A stretch of DNA of 64,000 bases from Owenia fusiformis (taxonomy: Eukaryota; Annelida; Polychaeta; Sabellida; Oweniidae). The stretch's first letter is position 1, and each line of letters opens with the position of its first letter. The notes under the pieces are model-generated. The model was not told the DNA's origin, ran no database searches, and saw only the letters and a list, made by a program, of their open reading frames with translations. Below are positions 31,083-61,320 of the stretch, piece after piece. Position numbers and translations under genes: made by a program. The stretch lies in NCBI GenBank assembly GCA_903813345.2, contig CAIIXF020000009.1, forward strand, positions 34,105,259 to 34,169,258, read 5' to 3'.

Positions 31083-34000
31083 ATGGAGGATGATAGGGAG
31101 CGTGAAAATGACTTAAATCCTGGCAATTGGCTCACGAATTGGGAGGATAAATGTATCCAAGATTTTGAAGACGAACCCAATATGGACGATATTATACAAG
31201 CTGAACGAGAAAGGGCGGCCCAAAAACTGTGGTTTTCATTCCAAAATTCAGCTTCTGGTGTAGCTCAAATGTACAAAGGTAAAGTATATATTCATATTAA
31301 GCAGAGATATTATCAATTCAGATGTAAAATCTCGTGCCTGACCTTCATTTATATATGACCTTTTCCCATAAATTTTCTGGAAATCAGACAGTCTCAGTCT
31401 GAACCTGATAATTGTTTATTCTCATTTATAGGAAATAGGAAAATCTGGGACCCAGATGAGTTTATTTAGTTCTTGGGATATGACTTTGTTCATCATTAAA
31501 TCTACGTTTTGATCAATTGAAGATAATCTCTGGAGAGTTTCAATAAACTTCATTATGAATTCTGATGAACCTTGTCCATCTTTGCTTTGTTTGACATCTT
31601 TGTAGAAGATTGAAACTTGACACTGAACTTTATCAGTTTAACACAACAGTATTATCAGCTCTGATGAACCATATGAAAGTTTGCATATTTCTGTCAAATG
31701 TGCTTGTTTGAAACTGACCAACAAAAACCTAAGATTATCACGAAGATTGCGAAATTCCCATTTCCTCACTGAATCATACTGGCATGCAGGCTCATTTTTG
31801 CGAGGGGGGAGGTTCAGTTTTAAAAAATTCTAGGGGAGGGGGGTCAAATTCAGGCCAAAGATTTATTTACATAATGACTTATTGCACTGTTATTTGATTG
31901 CTTATTTTTGGTTTGATCAGGTTTTTGGTCTGGTTTGATAGACTTACAATTTTGCGCTGCCTCAGATTGTAGATTGGAAGCAAATGGCTTAGAAGTCTTG
32001 TCATCACACTATAACAATGTTCATCCATTTCATTTTCATGATTTCACGGATGGAAGATAGTACAGCAAGCTTTGAAATGATCTCTCCTTTGTCTTGAGGT
32101 GTCTTTATATTTCTACTGTTGCAATATACAATAGAAATATTATTTTACTTGGGAATTTTTTTAAATAGGACGACATGATCTGAATGGATGCAAGGATTCA
32201 ATAGGCTGAGACTGGAGAAATTGTAATTTGAACCTTGTCAATTAAACATGTAATCTATGGAGGAAAAGTAGGTTGTTTCCCCCTTAGCTTTCCAGGGGTT
32301 CACTATGTACAAAATTTCGGCAGGGGTCCTAGACTAAACCCTCAGATATCAATATGTTCCCATACCAATTTGTCAAATTTTGATGTGTTCCCATACCAAC
32401 CAATATAATGCCGAAAAGTCATACCAAATGTCAAAATATAAGACCAATGCCATACCAAATGTCTAAATATAGGACCAATGACTATCGATGTTATGATTGG
32501 TCCAAAGAAGAATATTTCCTGGGAAAAAAGCTAAAATTTTAACTGAAGGAGGACTGAAGAAGAAGGCGATCTTTGAGGAAAACGTTCCAAAACAGCCTCA
32601 AATTAAGGATATGTATAAATACTAGACCAATGCCATACCACAAGTGTGAGGTAACATATTTTCCTAGACCATTCTCATACCAGAAAGTGAAAGAATCCGA
32701 CCATTGCCATACCTGAAAAGTCCCAATGAGGAGGCATTCTCATACCAGATCCTAAAATTTAGGGCCATTGCCATACCAAATGTCAAAAAAGTTGCCCCAT
32801 GTACACTGAGGATCCCCGTCAAGGTTAATATACAAATGAACACCCGGGCTTAGGTTACTCTGGGGTTTGTTTGTGTTACAACTGCTTGTAACTTTTGCTG
32901 TAAACCATTATATAGCCTAAACAGTGATCTCCCAACCATTAAAGCAAGTGGGCGCAATAACCACCTGAGATTTCAAAAACAGGGTTGCATCCTCTTGAAA
33001 ATGAGAAAAATCATGAAATATTGATATATTTCGACCAATTTTGGTCTGAAATGTGAAAATAAGAATTTTGTACCCACCTGAGAAAATATCCTGGTGAGAT
33101 CTCTGTTTAGGTTACCTTTTCTTAAACAAATCAGAGTTAATGAGATTGTAGCACATTTTTATTTACATTTGCAAAGGAAAAGTCTGAGGAATGTGGAATC
33201 TAGAATTCTAAAACAAAGGCTAATTTACCAACCTCTTGTCAATGGCATGACCAATCTGTGCAGTGATCGGTTGTGAATAAAACTGAGGTATAACAATGGT
33301 GGATTCCGTCTTCGGTGCTAAGTCAATATCATGACTTAGGTCTATCCTTACAATCCACAACAAAACTGAAATTTGAATTAAAAATCCTGTTGAGAACACT
33401 GCTAAAGCATTAGGAAAGATCCTTGAACAGATCCCTGATACCTAGAGTATAAAATACAGCCAATAGTCTAGTCCTTGACCAGGGGTCTCGCTAGGCTTTT
33501 ATAAATACTGTCTATTTAGCTCCCACAACAATTAAATGGCGAATATTGATTGTTCCCACAGTTTAAACTTGACTGAATACATAATAATAGATGTAAAATG
33601 GATAAAATATAACATAAATATGATGTATCACGATTGAATAGTTATGCAGAAGATGTTTCCATCACACCCTAAATATTTCCTGGTTAGAGTCCTGCTTGAC
33701 CTCAACTCTACTGCGCTAATGTGTGTTTATGCTAATTTTGTGTTTTCAGACCACCAGGCAGGTAGATCTATGTGGATACCTTTCCAGAATTCTGCCAGTT
33801 CTGTCACCAGTCTTTATAAAGGTAAGTAGGCTAGTATATATTCGCTACTGCTAAATGTTGTATCAACCATCTACACATGCTACATGTAGTTTGGAAAGGA
33901 AACATTGTTGATGGGGATTAAAGACTTGAGACAAAACTCCATGTCTTTCTGAGATTCATATTTTTACATTAGTGTGGTGATAATAATAATCATAAACCTT

Positions 34001-39104: not shown

Positions 39105-39905
39105 ACAGCAACTCCACGGAGTAGCAAATCCCACCGAACAAAACATATGCTTATTATAGCTAGTGTAAATGTTTGTGCACTTTGTGATAGAAGCATGAAA
39201 TTTGGTACAAAGTTAGTTTATACCATTGTGAACTAGGCATCATCATATAAAATTTGAACCAAATCCGTTCACTGGTATATGAGTTATCAAAGGTTACGTT
39301 TTTTACGAAAATTGGCCGCCATCTTGAAATTCAGCCGCCATCTTGAAAATTATTTCTTGAACAGAGCTACTGTGTCCCTAGGCATAATCATATAAAATTT
39401 CAACCAAATCTGTTCACTGGTATTTGAGTTATCAAAGATTACGTTTTTTACGAAAAATTGCCGCCATTTTGAAATTAAGCGGCCATCTTGAAAATATTTT
39501 GTCGAACATAGCTACTGTGTCCCTAAGCATCATCATATAAAATTTGAACCAAATCCGTTCACTGGTATTTGAGTTATCAAAGATTACATGTTTTTACAAA
39601 AAATGGCGGCCATTTTGAATTGAGCGGCCATATTAAAAATCTCTTTTTGTGCGAAACTCCTTTGTCCCTAGGCATCAGCATATAAAATTTGAACCAAATC
39701 CGTCAACTTGTATTTGAGTTATCAACGATTACATTTTTATGAAAAATGGCGGCCATATTGAAAATTCCTTCTCGAGCAGAGGTCCTACACTCATAAGGCA
39801 TAAGCCTACACAATTTGAACCAAATCCGTCAACCAGTATTGGAGTCATCGCCCGGACACACAGACGAACGGACGGCTTCTCTATATACTTGGATGGAAGA
39901 CTCTA
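39105..39905. mobile_element. GGCGGCCATTTTG-family element with internal 140-bp tandem units
   Basis: It begins near gtagcaaatcccaccgaaca and ends with cggacacacagacgaacgga and ctctatatacttggatgg. Inside are five units of about 140 bp: catataaaatttgaaccaaa, tccgttcactggtatttgag, ttatcaaag, then aaaatggcggccattttga. The same plan is seen at 54985-55896. No ORF. Confidence 0.7.
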
Positions 39906-43514: not shown

Positions 43515-46500
43515 CTGTAACACAAAATTGATCAGTATAATGCCTCTGAATTTAACCAATTAAATGTGGATCAGTAAACAAATGCTCACTTTTAAAAAAA
43601 ATGAATTCAAATCTAACATTTGTTGTCATTTTTGGCACAAGAAATGGATTCACTAAAAGCTTACTCCTGTAAACAAAATCCACTCATTGAACATGTATAG
43701 AACTCACCTCTGTTATCTGTGAAAGCTTGGCTTCTGTCATTGTAGCGTCCACTGCTGCTACTGGACTGTTGCTGGCTAGAGTGGGACTGGTGACCACGAT
43801 CTACAAACATATTCAACACATACATATTGATGACATAATGTACATTATTCATTTGAACAGAAACATGCTATTGTTTGATTCAAATTTTAAGAATACTTGT
43901 CAAAATTTTACAGTGGATGTTGATTAGATTTCTACATTCGTGTCCAATTAATATTACTGGTTTTCCAGCAATTTATTAAATGCTATAGAGCGCCGATACA
44001 ATATTAGTCAACATTACTGGTTTTCCAGCAATATAACCAAGATCCATAGTATCCCCATCTCCTCTAGGCTAGCTAAATATACATTACCCTCTACCAGAAT
44101 GGACAATGGACATAACATTTCACACAAAAAGGAGCAGTTTGGGTAATTAGAAAACTAAAACTTAGTGGAGCAGCAAATTCCGATGGTCATAATGTATTTA
44201 CACTTATCGTTTATACAGACTATTTCCTCATTTAATTTTTCAAGGGAGAACTCATTCTTGGGTGGCCATTTTAGATGTCTCAAAATAGTATGAAATGTTA
44301 TGTGGACTGTCAAACGTTCAGAATGGGTAACCCTAGTAACCAGGTACCTTCTACACCAGTCTTCTTTTTTTCCACAAATTTCGCCATCCTGGCCGAGTCT
44401 CTTCTCTGTGAAGCTGGCGATTTATACGAGTTTTTGTGATCTTGTAGCGCCTCCTGTTCCCTTTTCTGATTCATCAATTCAGCCATTCTTTCTGCGTCTC
44501 GTACTTTCTTGTTTACATCCCGACGATCTATTGGGAGTTTAATATTCCTTCAGTAACATTTCATGCAATCTCAAACAATTTGAGCTAAGAGAGTTTAATT
44601 TTTTTTTGAAAGCAACAGATATTGGTTTTCCAAATATCAGTTGCTATATATTTATTTTAATTATAATGAAACTTATAATGAAAGTTAACATTCTAAATCT
44701 TGTGCATTTCTTCGAATTTAAAATGGAAGGAAATCATTTGACCAGTGTTTATTTACTTCAATTTGTCCGGGAAAGGTCCATTCTATTTCACTGATAGTAA
44801 AGAGTTTGATTGCAACATACCCAAATTTGTCCTAAGAAATGCAAGAGATTGTTCAGTTTACTACACTTGAACTCACCAGAGTGAATCTGACCTCTTTCCG
44901 ACTTCCACTCCCCACGGCTGTCTGTGCGTCCACTGTCACGTGTTGTATTAGTGTGATGGGTGGCCTGCTGCCTGTTGCTGGTATAGTTATCACGAGAAGT
45001 GTTAGATTGGCGATCTTGCCTGCGGTCATCACGAGCTGGTGCAGCCCGATTATTATACCTAAACATACACAGGTAAATATATTTTTCTGGGAACGCTTTG
45101 AGAGAATATAAGTGTATTTTTCAGATATATTTTTGATTTCTATTTGATGATGAATTAGTGAGACTTTAGAAATAGTATTGCAATACGGTAACCTGATGCA
45201 ATGAAACAAAATTACAATCCAGTTATACAAGTATACAGCCCCATAAGGTGTCATCTAAACCAATTTGACTTTTGCTCAATTCTGGTCTGAAGGGGCTGTA
45301 TGAATATTGTGGTAAAACATGTCATGAGGTTCAGTGCCACCATTGACGTATAGTAGCTCTTTTGAGAGCAGATTGTGCTCATAAGTGGTCATAGTCACAG
45401 TTAATTTCCTCTCTCTATACAAAGCAATAACCACTGCTCTTACATCTACTTTGTAGGCATGATGACTGGACTGAAGTGAACTCCCATAACATGTTTTAGC
45501 AAACTGAATATCCCCATATATCACTACAGCCATGCTTAATTCACATTCTTCTCTCTAAAATTAGAATTATCTGATTGATTTCCTGCATTTTTATGTAATT
45601 TATGCTTACATCAACTTCATTTCTTTCTCCAATTTTTCTTTCTTTGGAAATATTAAGCATGACTATTGCTGATATCTGGGATTGCTTCTTGGAGCAGATT
45701 TCATTTACAATACCTGTCACTATACCTATCCTCCTGCCGTGTCCCTGTGTCACGTCGCGTATCCTCGTACCTGAAAAGTATGATTAAAATTATTAACATC
45801 ATAGGACATCATAAGACATTTTATAATTTTGAGCAAGAACTAACTTAGGTTCCTCAAACTGTAGTAGCAATATTGTGTTTAATGTTTGGTAAATCAAATG
45901 AATGAACTTGTATGAATTTTTTAAAACTATTGGAAACAAACTGATCCAATAAAAATCTTAGATAATGAAATTAATGCATAAATAATTCAAGCCCCTTCAA
46001 GTTTGGACGTTCCTGTGATATCAATAAGTCTTTGTATATAATAAAAATCTTTACCTATTATGCGTTACATTTGTATCTCTTGAAGTTGTCTCCCTAGTGG
46101 TTTCAACATTGGTCCTGCGGTCATACCTCTCAACTCTACGCTCGTTTCCTGTTTGGCGCTCTTCAAAATTCCTGCGATTATCAGTACGTGTATCTCTACG
46201 ATGATCGTCATAATTTCTGTAATACAATACAATTTACTTCATTCAACAAAATAATTCTTGCAATGAGAGTCATTTTGAAGGACTACTGAAAAAGGTGATA
46301 ATTTGTGTGATAATATATTCTATATATATATATGATTGTATGATAAAAAGATAAATAAACAAAATATGAAAAGATTTAAAAACTAGACATGTTTCTATAT
46401 TCCTCAGTAGTTTTTAAATTTTTATATATGATTATATATTATATATGATTGTATATATCCAGATGTAGACTTTCCTCCCTTTAGACTTCCAGTCCATTGA

Positions 46501-49500
46501 GTGAAGATTTTTGATCATAAAATGTTGACAAGTAAGTTGTCACTTCACCTTATAAAAACCAAACAAACAATTATTCTTGGTTGTGTACCTGTTCTGAGTT
46601 CTAGTATCCACTCTGGAGTTGTCTGTGGTGGGACGTTTGCTGTCCCAATAGCCTGGTTCTGCATTACGATTTCCAGAATCATATGTCCTCTTAGGGGCCC
46701 TTCTCTGTTCCTCCCTGTGAAATTAATGATATTATAAAAATAAAACCTTTGGTTCTCTGTTCCTACCTTTTATTTGTATAATAATAAATTCATTTAATCC
46801 TTGGGATATTCATGCTAGCTGGGAAATAACTTCCTTGGATTAAGAGGAAATTGAGAGTTAAAATCATTTTTTACAAAATTTCTTGCTGTTATTAACACAC
46901 ACATGGGGACACAAGCTGTTCTATAGTATATTATCTGATATAACAAAACATATTTGTTATTACATACCTTATTTTCTCAAGGCGCCTTGCCTCTTCTTCA
47001 CGACGTCTCCTGTCCTCTCTCTCTCGCTCTATTCTTTCACGTTCCATTTGTTGCTGGCGCTGACGCTCAAATCTCTCTGCTTCGAGGCGTGCACGTTCCA
47101 AACGATCTTTCTCATCCCTAGTTTAAAAGAAACAAACAATGCTATTTATAAATATCTGACTTTTTAGTTTTACTCAAAATGTGTAGTTACTGTATGTGAG
47201 ACTTGAATGTGGATGTTCATGTTCTACTGAACCAACTTAAGCAAATAGATATTCTCTGTATCTATTTATAGCTCAACTAACTTACTGGAGAGCTCTACGT
47301 TCTCTGGCAAGTCTATCAGCTTCACGTCGCTGTTCTTCATCAATACGTCGCTGACGTTCACGTAGGAGGAAACTCTGATGGCGATTGCTACGCTCCTCTT
47401 CACGAAGACGACGTTCTTTCTGACGGAGCCTTTCTCTCTCTCTTGCTTCCTACAATATGGACATAAAAAATCCTTGATATATTGCTGTATAGTATATCAT
47501 TCATACATTCTTATTTAGAGGTTTCAATATAAGTTTGATTCAGAATATTATTATAATCCTACAATATCAGATGAGATGCAGATACTTCATCATTCATTAC
47601 TACAATCATGACTAAGGTTGAATCAAATTTATTGCAAGAATTGAAAATTGTGCATGAGTAACAGATTTTCTGATACTAAGGATGATGCGCAACGGGGCAA
47701 GACATTTTGTGCGGGATTGTAATTTGTAAGCATGATTTTCATAAACTACTTATAGAATTAAGTGGTTTTCCAGTTTTGATGCTTCAGGCTTAGAAAATTC
47801 AAGTCAAGGCTTAAGGATAGTGTCCAATTGATGTAAGTTGTGGAAAGATGAAAAGATTTCATTAAGGAGAAGAAAATGATGATAAGCACCTCATTTCTTG
47901 TTTCAAAGAGCATTAGCATTAAAGTAGCATTGAGGGAACTACACCCATTTGAGACTTCATATAGGCTTGCAGCCAAAAGTGCCATTTGAAAATCATAAAA
48001 AAAATAGAAAATGCAACTCCAGATTAAAAAATCCAAACAAACTATATGTTGCTTCTCGAACACTAACAAATATTTAGCTAGATCTAAATCATTCAGAACA
48101 TGATATTAAATCTCCACAAAGAAGGTTGTTATGCTTTGTTTTGCCATATTATATTAACCTTGTAATTATAAACAAGCAATTGCTTAGATGCTGTCAAGCA
48201 CATTAGCATGTATGGAGGGCTTAAGGTGGGGGTAAAGCATGCACCCACCTGTAGCAGTTTACGGTCTAACAACACCTGTATTTGAGCTTCTTCTTTATCA
48301 AGCTAAAAGAAATTATTACTTTTAAAGTCATCCATAAACCAAAGAAAATCCCAATGCCTTTGTATAAAAAGTAAAGTGGGTAAAAATGAAGCAATAGTAG
48401 ACATAGATGGAGTAAAATAAAAACTTTTTAAAATGAAGAACATTTTTGACTTTCTGACACTAATGCTGCTTGAATCAGGGATTGTTAGTAATTCTGGTAT
48501 TAGATGAAACACAGAATCATTCATCAAAATTCCAAGCATTTCATAAGTATACATGGGCATTGGCGGGTATAGTGTTGTGGAAAAAATCCCAAATATATGT
48601 TATGGTGTTAAAACTCCATGCAAACCTGGCAAACAAAGTCGACAGATACATAGAGACAAGAAAATAAAAGATGAATGACCCATTTCCTCATATCAAACAT
48701 ATTAATTCCTACAACTATTTTGTTAGAAAACACCTAGGCTTGATTGAAACAGTAAACCTGTATAAACAAACACTTGTCTAATGGGATCACTTCATTCAAA
48801 GTCCTACCACTAAAAACCTAAATTGCGAATATGTGTTGCATACAGGTAAAATATTTGGATACAAATCGAACCCCTTCTTGGTGAAAATGATGAAAATAAA
48901 AATTTCCTTCAACAGAAGTTCATTCATATTGTTATAAAGAAATAATGTCTTTATAACAAGATTATAAAGAAATAACGTCTTTATAACAAGACAAGATTAT
49001 AAAGAAAAAAGAAATAACGTCTTTATAACATGATTATAAAGAAATAACGTCTTTATAACAAGATTATAAAGAAATAAGGTCTTTACAACAAGATGGGGAC
49101 GAGTGTTCATACTTTACAGGTTTACTTTGACAATCTGTTACTGGTTCATTCTCATCTACTGATTAATATAGCCTCTGTTTTATAGTTTATGTTCTTACCC
49201 TGGCCCTATCCGCCTCTGTTTTTCCATCTTTATCCCTAGACTGGGTACGTGTTCGACTATGCTCTTTTCTCTCAGTTTTAACAGCTTCCTTCTTTACTTC
49301 ATCAACCTTCTTTTCTCCTTCCTTGTTGTCTGCTTTCTTTTTGTCACCCTCTTGATCATCTACTTCTTTCTTAACTGCTGTTGGCTCCTCTTCCTTTTTA
49401 ACTGCAGATTCCCCTTCTTTCTTTGTGTCTTCAGGTTTATCTCCTTCCTTGCTGGCATCTGTGGTTTTCTCTTTCTCTATAAAAATTTATAAATGGATTT

Positions 49501-52500
49501 TATAGGCTTCTTAGGAGCATGTTCATTAGGCAATGGGATACTTATGGAACAAATTAACCACTGACTATAAACATTGGTGGGATCAGCAGAATAATCATTT
49601 TAAGTGCTTGATTCAGAATATTGCTATAATCCTATGATATCAGATGAAACACGGATAAATAATCATTCATCATTTCAAGCAATGCCAAATCATTCTTTAA
49701 TTCCAGAAATTAAACAAAAATGCAATTATAGAAAATAAGACAATGGAAACATATCCCAAAAATTGTCCTGAGAATCTTAACATACCCTCTTCCTTCTTCT
49801 CAGCTGACTTCTGGTCTCCTTCTTTCTTTGGTGTTGTCTTTGCATCCTTCTTGTCATCTTTCTTGTCGTCTTTTCTGTCATCTCGTCTTCTACCACCACG
49901 ATCATCTGATCTTCTACGGTCACCATGACGATGATCTATAACAATTAATTCATGTCATCAATCATTGAAAATGTTCTTTCTTGGGAGGTAGATGTAGATA
50001 TTGGAGTTAATAAGTGTTAAGGTAGTTATAAAGATGGCTTCATGATATAGCACAGGAGTAATGATTTAACAAGTGTGGTGTACAGGTTTAGGCCATATTC
50101 TTTTCATAATATCATACTTTCATATTCTACACTGAATTGCTGATTTTAATTCACGATTTTTAGGTCAGATTTATTTTAGTCTCCTATAAGATAAATTCTT
50201 GAAATAAACTGGAAATTGTATTCGACAGTTATTGTAGAATAAATAAAAAAACTAGTTTTAAAAGTTCAATAATTTCCAAAATATCATGATGCAGTACCTG
50301 AGGTTCTCCTGTCTCTTGGAGACATGTAGCCACGACGTCTGTCATCTTGAAAGCGAGCTCTATAATGACCAGATCCAGAAAGTCTTCTGTCACCACGCCT
50401 ATCTCTGTCATCACTTCGTCTCCTGTCGTCTTTCTTGGTTTCAACCTTTTTATCTGAAAATTTTTAAGGAAATAATTTACCAAATAAAATTCACATGATC
50501 TTAGTTCTACTCATTGTTATCTTAAAACATAAAATTTCTTGTTTCTTTTTGATGTTGATGTGTACTTGACAGTATGTGAAAAAGAGCTTGATTCAGAAAA
50601 TTGTTGTAATCCTATGATATCAGATGAAACACGGATAAATAATCATTCATCATTTCAAGCAATTCGAGTATCCATTATAGATATATTTGATTTGTGGACG
50701 TGTTTATACCAAAGGCCGGCAGATTATTGAATGGATGCAGTAAAGCACACAAACCTTTATCTTCTTTCTTTTCTTCTTTCTTATCAGTTGCTTTGGCCTC
50801 AGTAGCTTTAGCTTGGGGCTTAGGTTGAGTGGCAGGGTCAGTCTTTGCCTAAAAATTGACAAAGAGGTAATATACATACTGTACTGTTTCATTTCAAGGT
50901 TTGTTGTCTTGAAAATGAGAAATACCAAGAAAAATGGGCCAATTTTGACAAATTTAGGCTGATTTGTTAAAATAAGAATTTTGCAATATGTAAGATCCAG
51001 AGCTTTGTTGTAATCCTATGACATGAATTGTATTATCATTCATCACTGCATACAATATGCCTAGATCTATTATGGCGAGACCATACATACATAAGACATA
51101 GTATTGTTCAGAGTCATACATACCCTTTCTACAGAAATCATCCTGCCATGAAGTTCAGTTCTATGTAGATGTTGGATACACTTTGTTGCCTCTTCTTGGG
51201 TTGTCATGGTAACAAATCCATAGCAACGGGAGCCAGGGCTACGTGCATTAGTGACAACCTTTGCACCTGCAACCTATGATGAAATTGTACAAAATGTATA
51301 TATCTTAATATTAAACAACTGTTTCCAAAAAATACATTGAAAAACATAATTGTAGTATCTTTTGTTCACCTTCAAAAATGTAAATATTAGAGATAATGAA
51401 TTAAACATTGTAATTAAGACTTACTTTTCCATATTTGCTAAATAGAGCTTTCAAATCTGTAGCACGCGTAGAAGATGATAATCCACTGACCCATAGGTTC
51501 TTACTGTTGCTAGCTGCCCGACCTATAACACAATGCTGTTTATCAAAGGTTTGATCCAACACTACATACAATTACAGTTTACAAGGTGCTTCAGTTGTTG
51601 TACATGGCTTTGTTACTGTAAATTGTCAATTCAAAGTGGTTTATGCTCCAATCAGAATATTTCTATAATCCTTTATGATCAGATGAAACACGGATTTATA
51701 ATCATTCATCATTAATGAGCATAAAATAATGGGAATACCAAGATTTAGTTTTGCTTTATCCTATTTGAAAATACATGTACTCTTAAAATAAGTAAGATGC
51801 ATATCGATCAAAGCAGCAAAAATCATACTCCTTTGTATTATGCATCTTTGAAATAATCAAAATTACGTGGCAATATTTTGCTAACAACTGTTTATAACTT
51901 ACTCTTGTCATCTTTCTTAGCTTCCTCAGTAGTAGCGCTGGAAAAGAAATGTAAGATAATAAGAAAGTGTAATGAAGCATGTTCTAGTTATATGACAGAA
52001 TGTTTTAGAAACAGTGTTAATCATGCTATCGTGATCGAAAAAATCATGAGGTTATAAATAATGTCACTATTACCATCTATTCATTTATAAAGAAAATCAA
52101 GTTTTTTGGGCTAAATTCGCTGGCACGATTGTGTTGCCAAGGCCGGATGACAAATTTCATTTAATTATTAATTAATGGGCGCCATCTGTATAATCATGCA
52201 TTATTTTTTAAAAAATCAACCTTTTTATGTAAGAATTGTATTTACAAATGAAAAAATTATTGTGCAAAAATGTTCCGGTCATGTTTATTTATTTTAAACC
52301 CTACAATGTTAATGTAACCAAAAATGAATGAAATCCTGAAATTACTTAAAAGCTACATAATGTTGAAGTAAAAATTGTAGTAGAGATACTAGGCAAACTA
52401 AAAGATTAATACTGATGTATTCTAGTGCTTGAGCAGCACTCAGTTGGTATCAAAATAAATCCAGTGGCCGAAGCAGATAGAGGTGACCAACCGTAACCAT

Positions 52501-55500
52501 GGCGACTGCATCATACAAACCAACCTCTTATCATCAGAACTTTTTGCATCGGTTTTAGAATCATCTTTGTTGCTTTCCACTGGTTTTTCATCAGACTTTT
52601 CCTCAGATGTCTTTGTGGTCGATTCATCATTGGTATCAACTTTTGCAGGTTCTTTGTCACCACCAGTTTTCTCTGCATCTGCAACCTCTTGGGCGGTCTC
52701 GCTGGTTGATACTTCTCCATTGGCATGATCACCATTTTCCATAGTTAGAAGATCAGCATCAAGGTCGTTCTGTGCTGTATCATCAACCATAACAACAAGA
52801 GACACATCATCTTCTTTTTGTGACTCCAATGATGTGTCCATTTTGATTGTATCCTCGACGGTAAATGGTGCAACTGGTGCTACGCTAGTTGGAGTTGGTG
52901 GAACAGAGACGGCTTCCTTAAGGATGTCAGACTTGGTCTTATTCATGATAGCGGACACTTCTGCATCATTTGTACTGCCATCTTCACTTGCAGGAGCTTT
53001 CTTCTCATCATCAGGTGCAGTTGTAACAGGGTTAGTTTCTATGCAATGGAAATTCAACAGTAGAAACAGCTTAATGTAGGAATGTATACACCACGATATA
53101 TCTATATATTCGTCTTTAAGTACATGTATGTGTGCAAGTACAGCTAGCTACTTACCCCATACCCCTTAGTAAATAAAAGATTTGATCTTTAGGTGAGATG
53201 TCGTTTCACTCATATTGGCTAAAGGTTACATATACAAGAAATTCATTCATCAAACAAATTATATCCCCAAATAAGGTGAAACCTGTTTCAACAATTACCG
53301 CTCCAAGATGGTGTTGGCTGATAGCGTCACATCAATCACAGAATCCTCCTATACATGTCGAGCCAACTGTCGTCATAGAATAAACCTGTCTTAGAAACAC
53401 TGTATTTAATTACACATTGGAAAGATGGGTTTCGTGACTGTTCCATTTGGCATCTAAAGATCATAGGCCATTCATAGTCTGTTCATATATACTTTACTTT
53501 CCACCAGCCGAATACTAAGGAAGATTTCCATTTGAGGCTAAGGGCAACTCTGGACAGAATGTTCTGTAAGTAATGTTCCATATGTCTGAAAAATAAACTT
53601 GCAGCCTATGGAAAATCCAAACATGCAGTCCGTTACATATATATCAAAGTGATTGAAGTCTTCCTATTGTTATTTAGTTCCAGTTTTACTCCTTTCATTT
53701 CACTCCTTGTCTTTTTAGATTATCCGTTTCACTATTCTTTCACAGCAGTTCACAGTATTTTCAAGATTAAACAGTTATCTGTGGTGATGAACTTTTGAAA
53801 CAAATGTTTTGTCACCATGGCAACAACACAATGCTTGGATGACATGGTTACCAAAACACCAATACAAAGCAAATGTCATTGGCTATGTTGAAGTACTTGC
53901 AAAGTATCACTACCCATAACAATGTGCTAGGCAATCTTGCCATACAGTGCATGAGGCTTGATTTGATCTGGGGGATCAGTCCTCAAGTGGAATTTCTGAT
54001 GTACAGCAGGCATAGCAGTTTTGGGGTTTATTCTACTGATGCTAACATAGTTGGCTATGTAGACCGACAGTGGCATTGGATCATCAACTGGTTCTCTTTC
54101 CAGGCTTGATTGGGACCACCAATTCACTCTTGATGGGAACTGCCATCACGCTGTGGACATGAAGTCATTCATTTGGGACTCCTCGGGTACTCTAGCATGT
54201 GATGTACAGACAATTACGACCAAGAAGGATTTTCACGAATGAGCTTGACTACAATATATCATTTTAACCAAATACTGAATGCATTTCAAAAATTCAACAT
54301 GGGATAAGAATCGATCAACCCATAAAAATGAATGACTACAATCCTTCTTGATCTCATGTCTTGGTTGAAACAGGTCCCCCCTTAATTATATTCATATCTA
54401 ACACATGATCCACCAGTTATTTGTGTCTTAAACTCCTCGCTCATTTTACCTGCTTTATCCTGAGTTTTCACTTCTTCTTTAGGCTTGTCCTCCTGAAGAA
54501 AAAAAAATAGTGTTTTTATATTACAATGTTTTTTCAGGACAATTATGTGGTTGACATTTAAAGGTTTGGGCAATAAAAGATCACTGTTGAAATCAAAATT
54601 TATACTCAAATAGCAACTGGTGTAGTTGATGCCCAGAAAAAAAGTATCGTAACTGTGTGATGTAACGATAATAACAAGGCATTAACATGCAAAATGTCAC
54701 CACCTGCCTATTTTACAGACACCAAATGCAGACCGCCTAACACCATCCACAAAGAGTTGGAGACAAACCTAGTGGTGACACAACAGTGATGATTATAATG
54801 CTCAACTCAGAAAATTGTTGTAATCCTATGATATCAGATGAAACACGGATAAATAATCATTCATCACTTTGAGCATACAGTATAAACATGTTATAGTGTA
54901 AATTACCAGGAGCTAAGCAAATACTGATTTTTATAATGAAGCATGATGTAAGATAGTTTCAACTAAAGTAAACTCTAACCAGAACAACGGCAACGCCAAA
55001 GCGTAGCGAATCCCATCGAACAGAAATGGCTGACATTTTTACAAACGAAATATATAGCAAATATCATAAAACAACACACCAGAAAGGCCACCATTTTCAA
55101 AATGGTTGCTCATTTGCCAAGTTGTCATCAGAAGAAATAATATGCTTTCTACCAAAAGCATCATTAGACAGTGTGCCATGCTTATAGTATTCACATACCA
55201 AATATGAACAAAATCGCTCCACTACTTTTCAAGTTATAGTAAAATACGTTAAAATGGCGGCCATTTTTCAAAAAATTTTTCAAAATGGCCGCCTTCTACC
55301 AAAAGTGTCATAGGACAGTGTGCCATGCTTATAGTATTCACATACCAAATATGAACAAAATCGCTCCACTACTTTTCGAGTTATAGTAAAAAACGTTAAA
55401 ATGGCGGCCATTTTTCAAAATGGCCGCCTTCTACCAAAAATGTCTTTAGACAGTGTCCAATGCTTATAGTATTCACATACCAAATATGAACAAAATCGCT

Positions 55501-58500
55501 CCACTGCTTTTCGAGTTACAGCAAAAATCGTAAATAACGAGTAAAGGCCGCCATTTTTCAAGATGGCTGCCATGTGCTTCTTTAATATCTTCATTTGTAG
55601 CTTTATTAATGTCCTTTATAATTTTTTTACATTTAAAACATATTGCTATTACAGTTTTACATATTGCACCTAAATTACTGTAAAATCGGCACTAAAATGG
55701 CCGCCATTTTGAAATGAGCGGCCATTTTGAAAATCGGCTTTCGAGCAGAACTTCTAGCCCCATAGGGTATATGTGTACAAAATATGAACAAAATCGGGCC
55801 AACGGTATTTGAGTTATTGCCCGGACGGACGGACGTACGTACGGACGGAGGCGTTCCCTATATCCCTCCGAACTTCGTTCGATGGGATAACAAGTAACAA
55901 AGTAAATAACTTGTCAGTCAATTAGTTTTCTTGAATCCCAACTTCCAAGCATCGCCATCCCAGAATGAGATGTGCATGAAAGTGAAGTAAGATGCCTACC
56001 TCTTCTGCTAACAGCTTGTCTTCATCTTCTACAGTTAATGTTATAGCATCAGGCTCATCCATGACCAACTATAAAGATAAATTGCACAAATAAAAATACA
56101 ATCAATTAAGAATAAGAATAACAACTCTGCTCCAAAAAAGAAGCTGAATCAAAAGTGTTCAATGTCAAGATGAATGAACTTCATTTTTCCTATCGATAAT
56201 GCTAGAAAATGACTCATCTGAATAAACAAAGAAAACTTGTTATAAAACCGTTTAAATGAGACTCGTGTATACCATAACATATTAATATATTGAGAATTGG
56301 CTTTAAGTAAGTATTTCTACAATCAATAGTCTCAATGAGCTTATTGATTTTATGCATAAAACAATATCTATTATAAAATTAATCGGAAATTAATAGAAAA
56401 TAAATTTCCACTAAGCTCACAATAAAGCTCATATTCCAAACATATAACATACAACATACACAATATAAATTTACAGAATTTTTGTCCAGACCAATATTGG
56501 TCAAAATATGCCTGTTTTTCATGATTTTTCTCATTTCAAGTGGGTGCAAATGGGTTTTCAAGTAGCTGCAAGCCTGTTTTTATAATCTCAGGTGAGTGCC
56601 GCATCCACTTGCTTTAATACTGGGGAGACCACTGATATACCTAACTTAAATGTATCTAAACTTATATATGTGAAAGGGATGAAATTATGTATCCTAAAAA
56701 GACTAAGGTAACACACTAGTATGTCATAAACAGAAGAATACATGGGTGCTAGAAGTGCAACTGAAATAGAATACAAAACACTAACTTTCATAACGAAAAC
56801 ACCATCAAGCCACCACCAAACTTTTAATATGGGGAATTATACACAGAACGATGATTAACAAACACAACCATGTTCTAAAAATGCCTAAAATCCAGTAACA
56901 TGTTCTGCAAATCAAACACTGTCTATGTAAAGGTAAGGGGGAAACTGACTCTTACTATGTGTACAGATAGCCATCACCAAATAAAGTATTAACTACATTC
57001 CCTCTTGTACATGAGGTTCTACCATTAACAAATGCCCCAATTCAACAAAATAATGAAAAGTCAATACAGCTGATAAGAGATGGGGTCACATGTGGAAAGG
57101 TTCACAAAACACAGTCAAGAAGCAGAACAAAAAAAAGGACTCATCCCTCGAGAATTATTAATGTGCAATAACACATGATAAAATGTCATCACCTGTGGTC
57201 GTAATCCTAAAGTACAACTGATAAGAGATGGGATCACATGTGGAAAGGTTCACAAAACACAGTCAAGAAGCAGAAAAGAAAAGCCAGCCTTGAGAATTAT
57301 TAATGTGCAGTAACAAGGCATTTACATGATAAAATGTCACTACCTGGTCATAATTATTTTAAGTGTAACAATTTGTTACAGATGCTTACAGGTGGTGACA
57401 TTAAACCTGTCAAATGAATATCTTATGTAACTGTAACACCATGCTAGTGGAAGTTTTTAAAAATCACCAAATCCGAATATTATAATTTCGAGCTACCTCA
57501 AAGGCATCAATCTCCTTCTCTAACTGCTCTTCGGTTACTTTAACATCATGTTTAACACTGACTTTATTTTTTTCAATAGTTTCCATGTCCTAAAACCAGA
57601 ACAATGTCAATCCAGCGAAACGAAATATAAGTGCTGGGGCCTGAATACATAACCATGTGTGTAGAAACAGGTGTTTTGAAATATAACATAGCTTGGCTAA
57701 TCACATATTTCTGTTCAAAGCTGATAATTCTGATTAATTATTAACAACACTGAAGTATATTATCTTACACGCCACTCAAACATTTACAATCTCATACCCT
57801 TTTCACCTCCTATTTTTGATTTTGAGTTGAAAAATTACACCCAATGCCATTTCCCCAATGTTAAATTAGCAAGTTTCTACCTGGATTTGTAGTTAGGTAG
57901 TTGTCTTTTCTTCTTTAGCATTTACAATATTTTCAAAATCCATTTTCTAAGTTCCAACTTCTTCAGTTTCCACTTCAAATGATTATTATAATATTCCACA
58001 TGTTCAGCTTTGTTGTATCACAATATGATTTATTCTTAGGCTCTATTTCAACAATAGTGTCTAATATGGCAGGTCTTAGTTTGCCAATACTGTGCAGTTT
58101 TAGATTGTTGAAGCTATTAACATTGATTGTTATGTACAGTAGTATTCAATAATCATCTACATATCACTGACTCATTACATGTACTAAACTTGACTTGCAA
58201 TATTTATAGTACTAAACTAGCCTACTGAACATCACATTAATCAATATGCCCTTGGTAATTTTTTGTTGTTTTTCACTTCATAAAAAAACAATTTAAAGTG
58301 GAAGACATATAATTTTTAGAAAGGTGATTAAAGAATAAAGGTATGTTTAATATATTGGAACCATATGTAGAATCTATTTCTTGGCGATTTATTCTAGTAT
58401 ATACTGTTGGAACCATTTCATTACACTTGTTGATTTTTAAAATTCATATTTAAGTTTTGTTGTGGATTGTAAGGATAGACCTAAGTCATGATATTGACTT

Positions 58501-61320
58501 AGCACCGAAGACGGAATCCACCATTGTTATACCTCAGTTTTATTCACAACCAATCACTGCACAGATTGGTCATGCCATTGACGAGAGGTTGGTGAATTAG
58601 CCTTTAGTTTAGAATTCTAGATTCCAAATTTCTCAAGACTTTTCCTTTGCAAATGTAAAATGTGCTACAAACCCATTAACTTTGATTTGTTTGAGAAAAG
58701 GTAACCTAAACAGTGATCTCCCAATGATATATTCTCAGGTGGGTGCAAAATATTCATTTTCACAATTCAGACAAAAATTGGGTCAAAATATGCCAATTCT
58801 TCATGATTCTTCTAATTTTCAAGAAGGGGCAAATGAATTTTCAGGTGGGTGCAAGCCTATTTTCAAAATTTCAGGTGGGTGCTGCATCCATTTCCTTCAA
58901 TGCTGGGGATTGAGAGATCAATGTTTTTGAGAACTTTCCCAAGATTTGTTAAGTTCTATATTTACCTCAACATCTCCAGAAAGATCTTCATCGTCTCCCC
59001 CAACCTCATCAATCAACATGTTTTCATCATCAAGGTCAGGAAAGCCTTCATCTTCAACATCATCTATCGTATCATCTTTAACATCTTCCTGAAATCACAG
59101 AATCAATATTTTTTTAAATAGATTGAGTCAACACTACGAAACTATGTGCCAATTCATACATCATGTATTCAAATGATGGCCATATAAGCAATGGCACTGA
59201 CTGATCACCGAAAATGGAATCAACCATTTACATACCTCAGTTTTGTTCACAACCAATTATTACTCAAATCGGTCATGCCATCATGCATTTATAAGAGATT
59301 TGCAATTGGTTAATACCTAAAGGTTTTTAGGATATCATGTAATTTCACCATTTAATTCATGGACTTTTGAATTTTCACTTTGTATTGAATTCTGTGGAAA
59401 ATAAGAATTGGGTTTATATTTAATAATATACAATCTGTACATACCCTTTCTTTATCTGTGATATCTTCTTTCACATTTTCTTCTTTTGATTCTTTATCAT
59501 CATCTGCTGTTTCTTTCTGTTGTTCATCACCTTCTTTCTTGGCTGGTGTTTTACCAGGTGTTTTCACTGCAGGACTGTCAAAGGTATATTCTTCTGGGTT
59601 GTGACCCTCAGATTCAAGTGCCTTGAAATAATCGAGGGTGCAAAAAATTAGAATGCAACATGTTGGCTTGGTTTATGATTCAACAAAAAACATCAACAGT
59701 GTTCGCGCTAACCATTTAAATTTCTGAGTCCCAGGGACACAACCCATTTGAATAATGTGAGTCCCGTCTAATTTTTTTGCATCCCTCATATTTCTTCACT
59801 AAGTTCAAGAAAAATATTGTGAACGTGAAAATAAAGTGGGAGATAATAGAGTGCTTACACTAAAACGGGATAAAAATGACATATATTGTAATTCGATGCA
59901 TCCTCCCGATAAATATCTATCATTGGGTCCTCTTCACACAATTCTGAAGTAATGTTATACCAAAATAGTCCAAAATGAATGAAGGAAATGCTCAAATTAA
60001 GAGTTTTGTTTTTACATTTTACCAACTCGCGATCTTCAAGGTCATGCCAAGCCAAAGGTTGTGAACTTTTGCTTCTTTTTATTAACATTTCTCCTTATTC
60101 TGACGACTCATTAGATGAAAATCATCATTAAACAGTTATCTTGATGTATAACATTAGATAGATATATAATGGTCTCTAGTAGAAATAATAAAGATAATCG
60201 TGAAAACAAGTCCAGCTTCTGCAATATTGTATATTTTGATCTTGCATTTCGATTTCGGCATTTTCCGGAAGACATTGGAACCAATCAAAATCCATGTTTC
60301 AGACTGGAAACCCTGTAAATCTTCGCCGTAGACGACCCGCGTAATAAACAATCTTCATGTGGGTAACTATGTTTGATACATGGCTATTTTCGTAATAGTG
60401 TTGCATTCTTCTTGTTCATTTCAATACCAAATTATCACATATTGGGTATGTTTAAAGCCTACTTTGGAGCTAGTCGGCAGAAATTTTTGGCGTATGGATA
60501 TATTCAAATCGACATGCAAACTGTCTGGCCTAAATTTCAGGAATTTAACGATAAGACTCCACTATTTCCGGAAATTATAAAATGGCCGGGTGAAACCAGG
60601 AAGTGAGTATATTGTCGATGTATATTTTGCCAAATAAGTCATCGATGCAACACGATAAACTTTTGATTTAAACATCATAATTGAGTTTGTGTCCCAGGAT
60701 ACGCATGGGGCTCATTTTTCTGCATCCTCTCCCAGAAATCAGCGTAAAATATGCGGCTAGCGCGACCTCTGATCAATATATGATAAAAGTTCTACCCTGC
60801 ATTAAAACAATATGCACTGCATCTATCTAGTGATAAGGGCTCTTGGATGATTTAAAAAAAAGACAAACAGCGATAACATACATATACCCATCAGCACAAG
60901 ACTGCAACAAATGGCATTGAAACTAGGACACCAAGGTTGACCAAAATAAACCAATTGCAAAAACAGAGAGGCTGTAGTATATCGATATGTATGATTATGT
61001 GTGCATTTATAAGATAATGTTTAGGTTTTCATTACATATTATATATAAACTACGTCCAGAACAACATGACAGGATAACTCAGATCTAATGATGACATCAT
61101 CACAATGGAGGAAGCATTTCTAAAGAAAATAATTTCTGAAAATTTACATATTTCTTTTGGAAGATTCAAAAGCACTGCAAACACAAACCTCTTTTAAACG
61201 TTCAATCAGGATAGCTTTGACACCAGTCTTTTCTAATTTTCTCTTCTCGAGCTCGGCCCTAAGGTCTATCACTCTCAATGTCGCTAATTTCTTGGAAGAA
61301 TTCTCTGGAGTGGAAGCCAT
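43183..61320 (-). CDS. SAFB: scaffold attachment factor B-like protein (SAP + RRM), 24 exons
   Basis: Exons (minus): 61189-61320, 59445-59621, 58966-59088, 57497-57589, 56000-56068, 54450-54492, 52525-53038, 51903-51937, 51425-51522, 51124-51273, 50755-50848, 50298-50453, 49786-49935, 49199-49476, 48249-48302, 47286-47449, 46968-47117, 46589-46714, 46055-46216, 45714-45770, 44877-45058, 44348-44527, 43708-43800, 43183-43514. The sum is 3612 nt, 1203 residues, with all phases agreeing. Domain order: SAP (DNA-binding), acidic region, RRM at about 404-479, Lys/Glu- and Arg/Asp-rich part, Arg/Glu coiled coil at about 705-830, low-complexity Arg/Ser/Gln tail ending RRY, as in vertebrate SAFB/SLTM. 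SAFB proteins bind nuclear-matrix DNA and RNA and influence splicing and transcription. Start chosen at the second ATG (A at -3, G at +4); an ATG six codons upstream is possible. Confidence 0.93.
44348..44527 (-). CDS. SAFB: SAFB-like exon 22: extra basic helical segment
   Basis: Encodes [40 protein letters not shown] and [18 protein letters not shown]. It is phase-compatible on both sides (180 nt, symmetric, hence skippable). I do not recall such a helix in the Arg/Gly-rich tail of vertebrate SAFB, so it may be lineage-specific. Confidence 0.75.
46317..46346. repeat. AT microsatellite in a SAFB-like intron
   Basis: Short (TA)n run followed by atatatgattgtat-type repeats to about 46460, between exons 18 and 19. 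Confidence 0.6.
46968..48302 (-). CDS. SAFB: SAFB-like exons 15-17: Arg/Glu-rich coiled coil
   Basis: Exons 48249-48302, 47286-47449 and 46968-47117 encode [27 protein letters not shown]-like [20 protein letters not shown], and [20 protein letters not shown]. This corresponds to the long ER-rich helix that follows the RRM in SAFB/SLTM. Two of the introns here (47450-48248, 48303-49198) hold snoRNA-like units. Confidence 0.88.
47534..47598 (-). ncRNA. degenerate box C/D snoRNA-like unit (SAFB intron 15)
   Basis: On the minus strand: box C ATGATGA (47587-47593), D' CTGA (47567-47570) and D CTGA (47540-47543), with the same spacing as the better copies and the shared GGATTATA block. The guide next to D' is changed (CTGCATCTCAT) and there is no clear terminal stem, so it may be decayed or have a new target. 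It lies about 90 nt upstream of the 3' splice site. Confidence 0.45.
48462..48540 (-). ncRNA. box C/D snoRNA-like unit (SAFB intron 14)
   Basis: Minus strand: AATGCT...AGCATT terminal stem, box C-like TTGATGA (48521-48527), guide TTCTGTGTTTCAT, a D' changed to CTAA, and D CTGA (48475-48478). One guide base differs (C to T), which would still allow a G-U pair. Less canonical than the copies at 49605, 50586, 51641 and 54798. Confidence 0.5.
48931..49093. repeat. 30-bp tandem repeat in a SAFB-like intron
   Basis: Five units of attataaagaaataacgtct plus ttataacaag, the third carrying a short insertion. Each unit is itself nearly palindromic (ttataaagaaataa / ttataa). There are no spacers, so it is not a CRISPR. 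Confidence 0.85.
49605..49681 (-). ncRNA. box C/D snoRNA-like unit (SAFB intron 13)
   Basis: Minus strand order: stem TGCTTGA, box C ATGATGA (49667-49673), guide ATCCGTGTTTCAT directly before D' CTGA (49640-49643), then CATAGGATTA, box D CTGA (49613-49616) and closing stem TCAAGCA. Boxes lie one base from the stem, as a k-turn requires. Length is 77 nt, about 130 nt from the downstream exon. The host is transcribed in the same direction, so the RNA could be released by intron debranching and trimming. Confidence 0.78.
50586..50660 (-). ncRNA. box C/D snoRNA-like unit (SAFB intron 11)
   Basis: Minus strand: stem GCTTGA/TCAAGC, box C ATGATGA (50647-50653), the same ATCCGTGTTTCAT guide before D' CTGA (50620-50623), box D CTGA (50593-50596). 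The copy is almost identical to the one at 49605 between the stems, while flanking intron sequence is unrelated. Confidence 0.78.
51000..51060 (-). ncRNA. decayed snoRNA-like unit (SAFB intron 10)
   Basis: Minus strand: box C GTGATGA (51040-51046) and the shared CATAGGATTACAACAA block are present, but the guide is deleted, D' is lost and D reads CTGG. Best seen as a pseudogene of the same family. It lies about 150 nt upstream of exon 11. Confidence 0.4.
51124..51522 (-). CDS. SAFB: SAFB-like exons 9-10: RNA recognition motif
   Basis: Exon 9 (51425-51522) gives [20 protein letters not shown] (RNP2 LWVSGL, residues 405-410). Exon 10 (51124-51273) gives [20 protein letters not shown] (RNP1 RCYGFVTM, residues 444-451) and ends [16 protein letters not shown]. 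The vertebrate SAFB RRM is almost identical here, which fixes the family. The intron between them is only 151 bp. Confidence 0.93.
51641..51724 (-). ncRNA. box C/D snoRNA-like unit (SAFB intron 8)
   Basis: Minus strand: 8-bp stem TTATGCTC/GAGCATAA, box C ATGATGA (51706-51712), guide ATCCGTGTTTCAT before D' CTGA (51679-51682), box D CTGA (51652-51655). The stem sequence differs from that at 49605 but pairing is kept. It lies about 120 nt from exon 9. Confidence 0.75.
52525..53038 (-). CDS. SAFB: SAFB-like exon 7: long acidic/Ser-Thr region
   Basis: At 514 nt this is the largest exon, coding about 171 residues rich in Asp, Glu, Ser, Thr and Lys ([20 protein letters not shown]). It is probably disordered and phosphorylated. 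Its donor is gttggt, unusual among the donors of this gene; a slightly different 3' border cannot be excluded, but the phase into the 35-nt exon 8 fits. Confidence 0.8.
54798..54876 (-). ncRNA. box C/D snoRNA-like unit (SAFB intron 5)
   Basis: Minus strand: stem ATGCTCA/TGAGCAT, box C GTGATGA (54861-54867), guide ATCCGTGTTTCAT before D' CTGA (54834-54837), box D CTGA (54807-54810). The interior is almost the same as the 50586 copy. It is farther from the 3' splice site (about 305 nt) than the other copies. Confidence 0.77.
54985..55896. mobile_element. GGCGGCCATTTTG-family element with TIR-like ends
   Basis: Starts around aacggcaacgccaaagcgta plus gcgaatcccatcgaaca and ends cgttcgatgggataac, so the outer GTTCGATGGGAT boxes are inverted. 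Inside are three to four units of about 130 bp (accaaatatgaacaaaatcg, ctccactacttttcgagtta, aaaatggcggccatttttca) and a cggacggacggacgtacgta run. No ORF. It lies in SAFB-like intron 5. Confidence 0.75.
56480..56630. repeat. dispersed repeat fragment (CAGGTGGGTGC family)
   Basis: Contains ggtcaaaatatgcctgtttt, caagtgggtgcaaatg and caggtgagtgccgcatccac, matching part of 58706-58925 and, inverted, 32905-33100. Confidence 0.65.
57065..57345. repeat. direct repeat of about 130 bp in a SAFB-like intron
   Basis: 57065-57190 and 57213-57345 share ctgataagagatggg, tcacatgtggaaaggttcac and cagtcaagaagcagaa in order, offset by about 148 bp. They include parts of the GTCACCACCTG family. Confidence 0.7.
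58455..58925. repeat. dispersed repeat (inverted copy of 32905-33365)
   Basis: Near-complete inverted match to the repeat in HAPSTR1 intron 1, immediately upstream (in genomic terms) of SAFB-like exon 3. A shorter relative is at about 59205-59310 (cctcagttttgttcacaacc). Confidence 0.75.
59697..60771. mobile_element. TIR transposon in SAFB-like intron 1 (CGCGCTA ends, ATCAA duplication)
   Basis: Ends cagtgttcgcgctaacc and the inverse of cagaggtcgcgctagcc are flanked by ATCAA on both sides (59692-59696, 60772-60776). Subterminal gtcccagggacac and gtgtcccagg are also inverted. Inside are three ORFs of 65-78 codons (minus 59855-60088, minus 60154-60351, plus 60373-60606) that I do not recognise; they might be parts of a broken transposase or a spliced internal gene. 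Confidence 0.7.
61189..61320 (-). CDS. SAFB: SAFB-like exon 1: SAP domain
   Basis: Encodes residues 1-44, including [20 protein letters not shown] and [10 protein letters not shown]. This is the SAP helix-turn-helix motif almost as in vertebrate SAFB ([13 protein letters not shown]). The next exon continues [12 protein letters not shown], which also matches the family. The donor is gtttgt, weaker than its neighbours. Confidence 0.9.

Follow-up and report, generated by a model that had tools for sequence, protein, structure and literature searches.

Putative intron-encoded box C/D small nucleolar RNAs in seven introns of a SAFB-like gene of the annelid Owenia fusiformis

The SAFB-like host gene and its intronic units

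The DNA analysed here, called the window below, is a stretch of 64,000 nucleotides (nt) of the annelid Owenia fusiformis (assembly GCA_903813345.2, contig CAIIXF020000009.1, positions 34,105,259 to 34,169,258, forward strand). On its minus strand it carries a SAFB-like gene, and seven different introns of this gene each contain one unit with the features of a box C/D small nucleolar RNA (snoRNA), all seven in the orientation of the host. The joined reading frame of the gene model matches the Pfam domains SAP (34.2 bits, cut-off 23.9) and RRM_1 (56.6 bits, cut-off 20.7). This combination, together with a long charged C-terminal part, is characteristic of SAFB, and the SAFB-like host proposed in a preliminary description of the window is thereby upheld. 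The splice choices of the model are weakest for intron 1 and for the intron 7 donor, which was set by hand, and further exons probably lie beyond the modelled end, below 46055. A search of the open-access literature with narrow terms found no paper on SAFB as a snoRNA host. The gene and its units are as follows, with distances measured to the 3' splice site; E-values are those of a profile built from the four intact copies alone.

46055-61320, minus strand: SAFB-like host gene; 19 modelled exons, 18 GT-AG introns, joined frame of 922 residues
54799-54875, minus strand: intact C/D unit in intron 5 (54493-55999); guide ATCCGTGTTTCAT before D'; 8-bp stem; SNORD126 26.0 bits, below cut-off; 306 nt
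51645-51720, minus strand: intact C/D unit in intron 8 (51523-51902); 9-bp stem; SNORD126 34.1 bits, below cut-off; 122 nt
50990-51052, minus strand: decayed unit (copy 51000) in intron 10 (50849-51123); D' guide deleted; box D reads CTGG; 4-bp stem; E 2.4e-5; 141 nt
50585-50661, minus strand: intact C/D unit in intron 11 (50454-50754); 6-bp stem; SNORD126 32.4 bits, below cut-off; 131 nt
49605-49681, minus strand: intact C/D unit in intron 13 (49477-49785); 7-bp stem; SNORD126 34.9 bits, below cut-off; 128 nt
48462-48535, minus strand: decayed unit in intron 14 (48303-49198); guide with ten pairs and one G-U; D' reads CTAA; box C begins with T; 6-bp stem; E 2.2e-6; 159 nt
47534-47606, minus strand: decayed unit in intron 15 (47450-48248); guide broken; box C damaged; 4-bp stem; E 6.5e-12; 84 nt

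All seven units of the preliminary description are thus present, with one start moved from 51641 to 51645, and its placement of most units 90-160 nt upstream of the 3' splice site agrees with the 84-159 nt found for six of them. The four-copy profile recovers the three weak copies from the window with its next-best match at E 5.5, and each strong copy, when left out of the profile in turn, is recovered with an E-value of at most 1.6e-14. A sequence-only covariance model built from the seven copies returns the same seven, which were its training set, and nothing else below E 0.1. The 17-nt string of guide plus D' box, ATCCGTGTTTCATCTGA, occurs five times in the window with up to three mismatches, against 0.17 expected; RTGATGA alone shows a modest enrichment (46 matches, 32.5 expected).

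Anatomy of the units and their match to 28S ribosomal RNA

All four intact copies carry box C (RUGAUGA) close to the 5' end and box D (CUGA) close to the 3' end. Each of the three weak copies has damage in one of these boxes: 51000 in box D, 48462 and 47534 in box C. The boxes C, D' and D that had been ascribed to the family are all intact in its strong members. The constant spacing that had been claimed holds in five copies, in which boxes C and D with the sequence between them span 61 nt, and fails in 48462 (53 nt) and 51000 (50 nt). Terminal stems comprise 6-9 bp in the intact copies and 6, 4 and 4 bp in 48462, 51000 and 47534; pairs were counted directly on each copy because the MAFFT alignment misplaces the stem of 51645. 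Under the same rules, 1.4% of 20,000 random pairs of 14-mers from the window reach a stem of 6 bp. Between copies 49605 and 54799, two stem pairs are altered on both sides (T-A to C-G and G-C to A-T).

The interior of the units is conserved and the flanking intron sequence is not, as had been described: the 61-nt core shows 82-98% identity between the four strong copies, compared with 10-33% for the 48 bases past the stem on either side. Within the core, none of the 17 columns of guide and D' box varies, nor do any of the 4 of box D; box C varies at 1 of 7 (A or G, both allowed) and the remainder at 10 of 33. Guide and boxes together (1 of 28) differ from the other columns (10 of 33) with a Fisher p of 0.008, a value to be read with the caution that columns are not independent.

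In all four intact copies, positions 2-12 of the D' guide form 11 Watson-Crick pairs with TTGAAACACGGACC in the organism's own 28S ribosomal DNA (rDNA), position 5 facing the central A of GAAAC; in the three weak copies the guide is lost or weakened. The target lies inside a match to LSU_rRNA_eukarya of 506 bits, at the gathering score, in rDNA locus L016. This is a shorter sequence from the same place as locus L019, which contains 4,900 N (about half of it) and yields no ribosomal RNA (rRNA) at the Rfam gathering score. The string GACCCGTCTTGAAACACGGA, a 28S primer sequence that also occurs in 28 published papers, is found three times in the genome, with none for the control. The predicted register is that of human SNORD126, guide for 28S A1310, where the equivalence in human numbering draws on a review (PMC8307265).

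A scan for a further guide, preceding box D, covered the half-N sequence of L019 and a 7,069-nt stretch of L017 and L021, and its best match per copy ranged from 6 to 10 pairs. The best of these, 10 pairs including one G-U and given here with no chance control, joins copies 54799 and 50585 to AAAGTTGTTG in the 18S part of L017 and is absent from the other copies. These two copies may have a second guide for 18S, which we regard as a lead only. Six 28S landmarks sought downstream in L021 were not found there, so that the scan covered only the smaller part of the 28S. Locus L017 (G000 C501) is itself a rearranged piece of rDNA, in which a large-subunit fragment (232 bits) abuts a small-subunit match.

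From this arrangement a course of events can be proposed. After splicing of the SAFB-like precursor messenger RNA, trimming of the intron would release the snoRNA, which would associate with the C/D core proteins 15.5K, NOP56, NOP58 and fibrillarin. The guide before D' would then pair with TTGAAACACGGA of 28S rRNA and direct 2'-O-methylation to the central A of GAAAC (within TTGAAACACGG, the equivalent of human A1310). Expression, particle assembly and methylation are in this way predicted from the sequence.

Related sequences in the genome and other elements of the window

In the 498-Mb assembly, a DNA search with copy 54799, whose counts are lower bounds, gives matches at at least four places, all four in the SAFB-like gene. 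A pattern of box C, spacer, TCCGTGTTT, up to 4 nt and CTGA has nine matches genome-wide, and the reversed pattern, used as a control, has none. The nine comprise the same four places in the SAFB-like gene and five units of SNORD18 type, all five at or above the Rfam cut-off (41.9-47.5 bits, cut-off 41).

G000 C7:15.82 Mb (L007, L008) and C11:24.65 Mb (L014): SNORD18 units, three in RPL4 introns and two beside an RPS4 exon

The RPL4 call is based on one exon matched to uL4 structures and on exons read by eye on both sides of the first unit. The units of the SAFB-like gene resemble SNORD18 (U18) in RPL4 in being a C/D guide that is present in several copies, one per intron of one host, and directed to an overlapping part of 28S. 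They differ in that the D' box of SNORD18 directly follows GTTT, which leads to a target base three positions further 3' in 28S, A1313 in human. Chicken U18 is described as three copies in introns 2, 5 and 6 of RPL4 (PMC2653536), and the presence of SNORD18 in RPL4 introns here thus indicates that this genome multiplies another 28S guide inside its classical host, as in chicken. The units also resemble C/D families kept in one host gene, such as SNORD12 and SNORD58, which have other guides and hosts.

Weak Rfam matches on the copies to SNORD111, snoR38, SNORD127, SNORD11B, SNORD12 and Am982, and one to snoMe28S-Am2634 at 45136 on the plus strand, were set aside as shared C/D features or chance.

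The window also contains snoRNAs of the H/ACA class. SNORA57 copies lie at 33232-33365 (plus strand), in an intron of a HAPSTR1/TAPR1-like gene (31-37 kb), and at 58455-58588 (minus strand), in SAFB intron 3 (61.2 and 63.3 bits, cut-off 40), and a diverged third copy is found at 59185-59281 (minus strand) in SAFB intron 2. The first two share a duplication of about 470-495 bp, whose alignment has 37 gap positions and identical bases at 415 of 463 aligned ones; it reaches 21-23 bases past the 3' end of the snoRNA and more than 300 bases upstream. The copies found of the C/D family all lie in the SAFB-like gene; SNORA57-like sequence occurs at six places in the genome: two SAFB introns, one HAPSTR1-like intron and three elsewhere, three of the six at or above the Rfam cut-off. 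Tandem repeats are present as well. An array at 48926-49093 in SAFB intron 14 consists of 30-bp units, each near-palindromic (TTATAAAGAAATAACGTCTTTATAA), and two arrays of similar style, rich in AATGGCGGCCATTTT, lie at 55144-55555 (130-147 bp unit, SAFB intron 5) and 39233-39849 (145-bp unit).

Origin, family assignment and meaning of the units

The units are very probably intron-encoded box C/D snoRNAs that multiplied by duplication within one host gene, four of them likely functional and three decaying. The reading of the preliminary description as intron-hosted C/D snoRNAs is borne out by the boxes, their spacing, the compensated stems, the position in host-strand introns, the invariant D' guide matching the organism's own 28S and the sub-threshold matches to SNORD126. 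For C/D families kept in one host gene, duplication by recombination in cis has been proposed (PMC8178906). Several observations weigh against this reading: no copy attains the SNORD126 gathering cut-off (the best has 34.9 of 55 bits), the candidate C' box between D' and D, AGGATTA, was found by eye and is loosely recognisable, and copy 54799 lies farther from its 3' splice site than the other copies.

It appears improbable that the copies are, without exception, remnants of an extinct snoRNA from which no RNA is made. This would suit the clear decay of three of the seven copies, and many snoRNA copies in vertebrate genomes are described as unexpressed (PMC10234308); the four other copies, however, have kept boxes, guide and compensated stems while their flanks and the stretch before box D changed. 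Still less credible is the notion that the units are a mobile element or a retroposed snoRNA that was inserted repeatedly. The similarity stops at the snoRNA borders, as expected of retroposed snoRNAs, and 7-bp direct repeats flank two copies (51000 and 49605), which fits insertion. The other five copies, however, have no flanking repeat of at least 6 bp when both ends are searched, and all seven units share the orientation of the host. The scatter through unrelated DNA that the preliminary description had named as the mark of a transposon is not seen either: the assembly matches, a lower bound, all lie in the SAFB-like gene, and the pattern scan finds the same four there. A transposon origin is disfavoured on this ground.

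As to the family, Rfam places all four intact copies closest to SNORD126 (RF01168), at the scores listed above. They lie below the cut-off and are for this reason filed as box C/D snoRNAs and not as SNORD126. They share with SNORD126 the guide core TCCGTGTTTCA and its distance from D' (by Rfam alignment in three copies, by sequence in the fourth), and the same 28S base would therefore be addressed. Rather unlikely, though a possible origin, is descent from SNORD18 with a D' box shifted by three bases, the likeness to SNORD126 having arisen by convergence; in that case, too, the units would be C/D guides directed to this part of 28S. SNORD18 also matches the four copies below its cut-off (27.9, 24.9, 23.9 and 22.5 bits), and genuine SNORD18 with the same core TCCGTGTTT is present in the genome. 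SNORD126 nevertheless outscores SNORD18 on all four, and the distance from guide to D' is that of SNORD126, which counts against descent from SNORD18. The units are most likely cis-duplicated 2'-O-methylation guides of SNORD126 type. They differ from human SNORD126, whose host is reported to be CCNB1IP1 (PMC8148486), in having four intact copies in one gene, a SAFB-like host and scores under the Rfam cut-off.

The intron-hosted arrangement of these guides is of an ordinary, well-known kind, and a multicopy guide in a SAFB-like host would be an addition to a well-understood class of snoRNAs. The fuller proposal, of a SNORD126-type guide for 28S A1310 that is hosted and amplified inside SAFB and forms a visible series of birth and decay over seven introns, is advanced tentatively. 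If it is true, the supply of guide would depend on the expression of a gene for an RNA-binding protein. In a review, SNORD126 is given as the guide of A1310, and the mark is said to vary between mammals, with none in mouse and a tissue-specific one in rat (PMC8307265). If the units are orthologous to human SNORD126, one of the two hosts, SAFB and CCNB1IP1, would have replaced the other, and the mark would be old despite its absence in mouse and its tissue specificity in rat. With four intact guides for the same 28S base beside three decayed ones, this gene would show in compact form how snoRNAs arise and are lost in nature.
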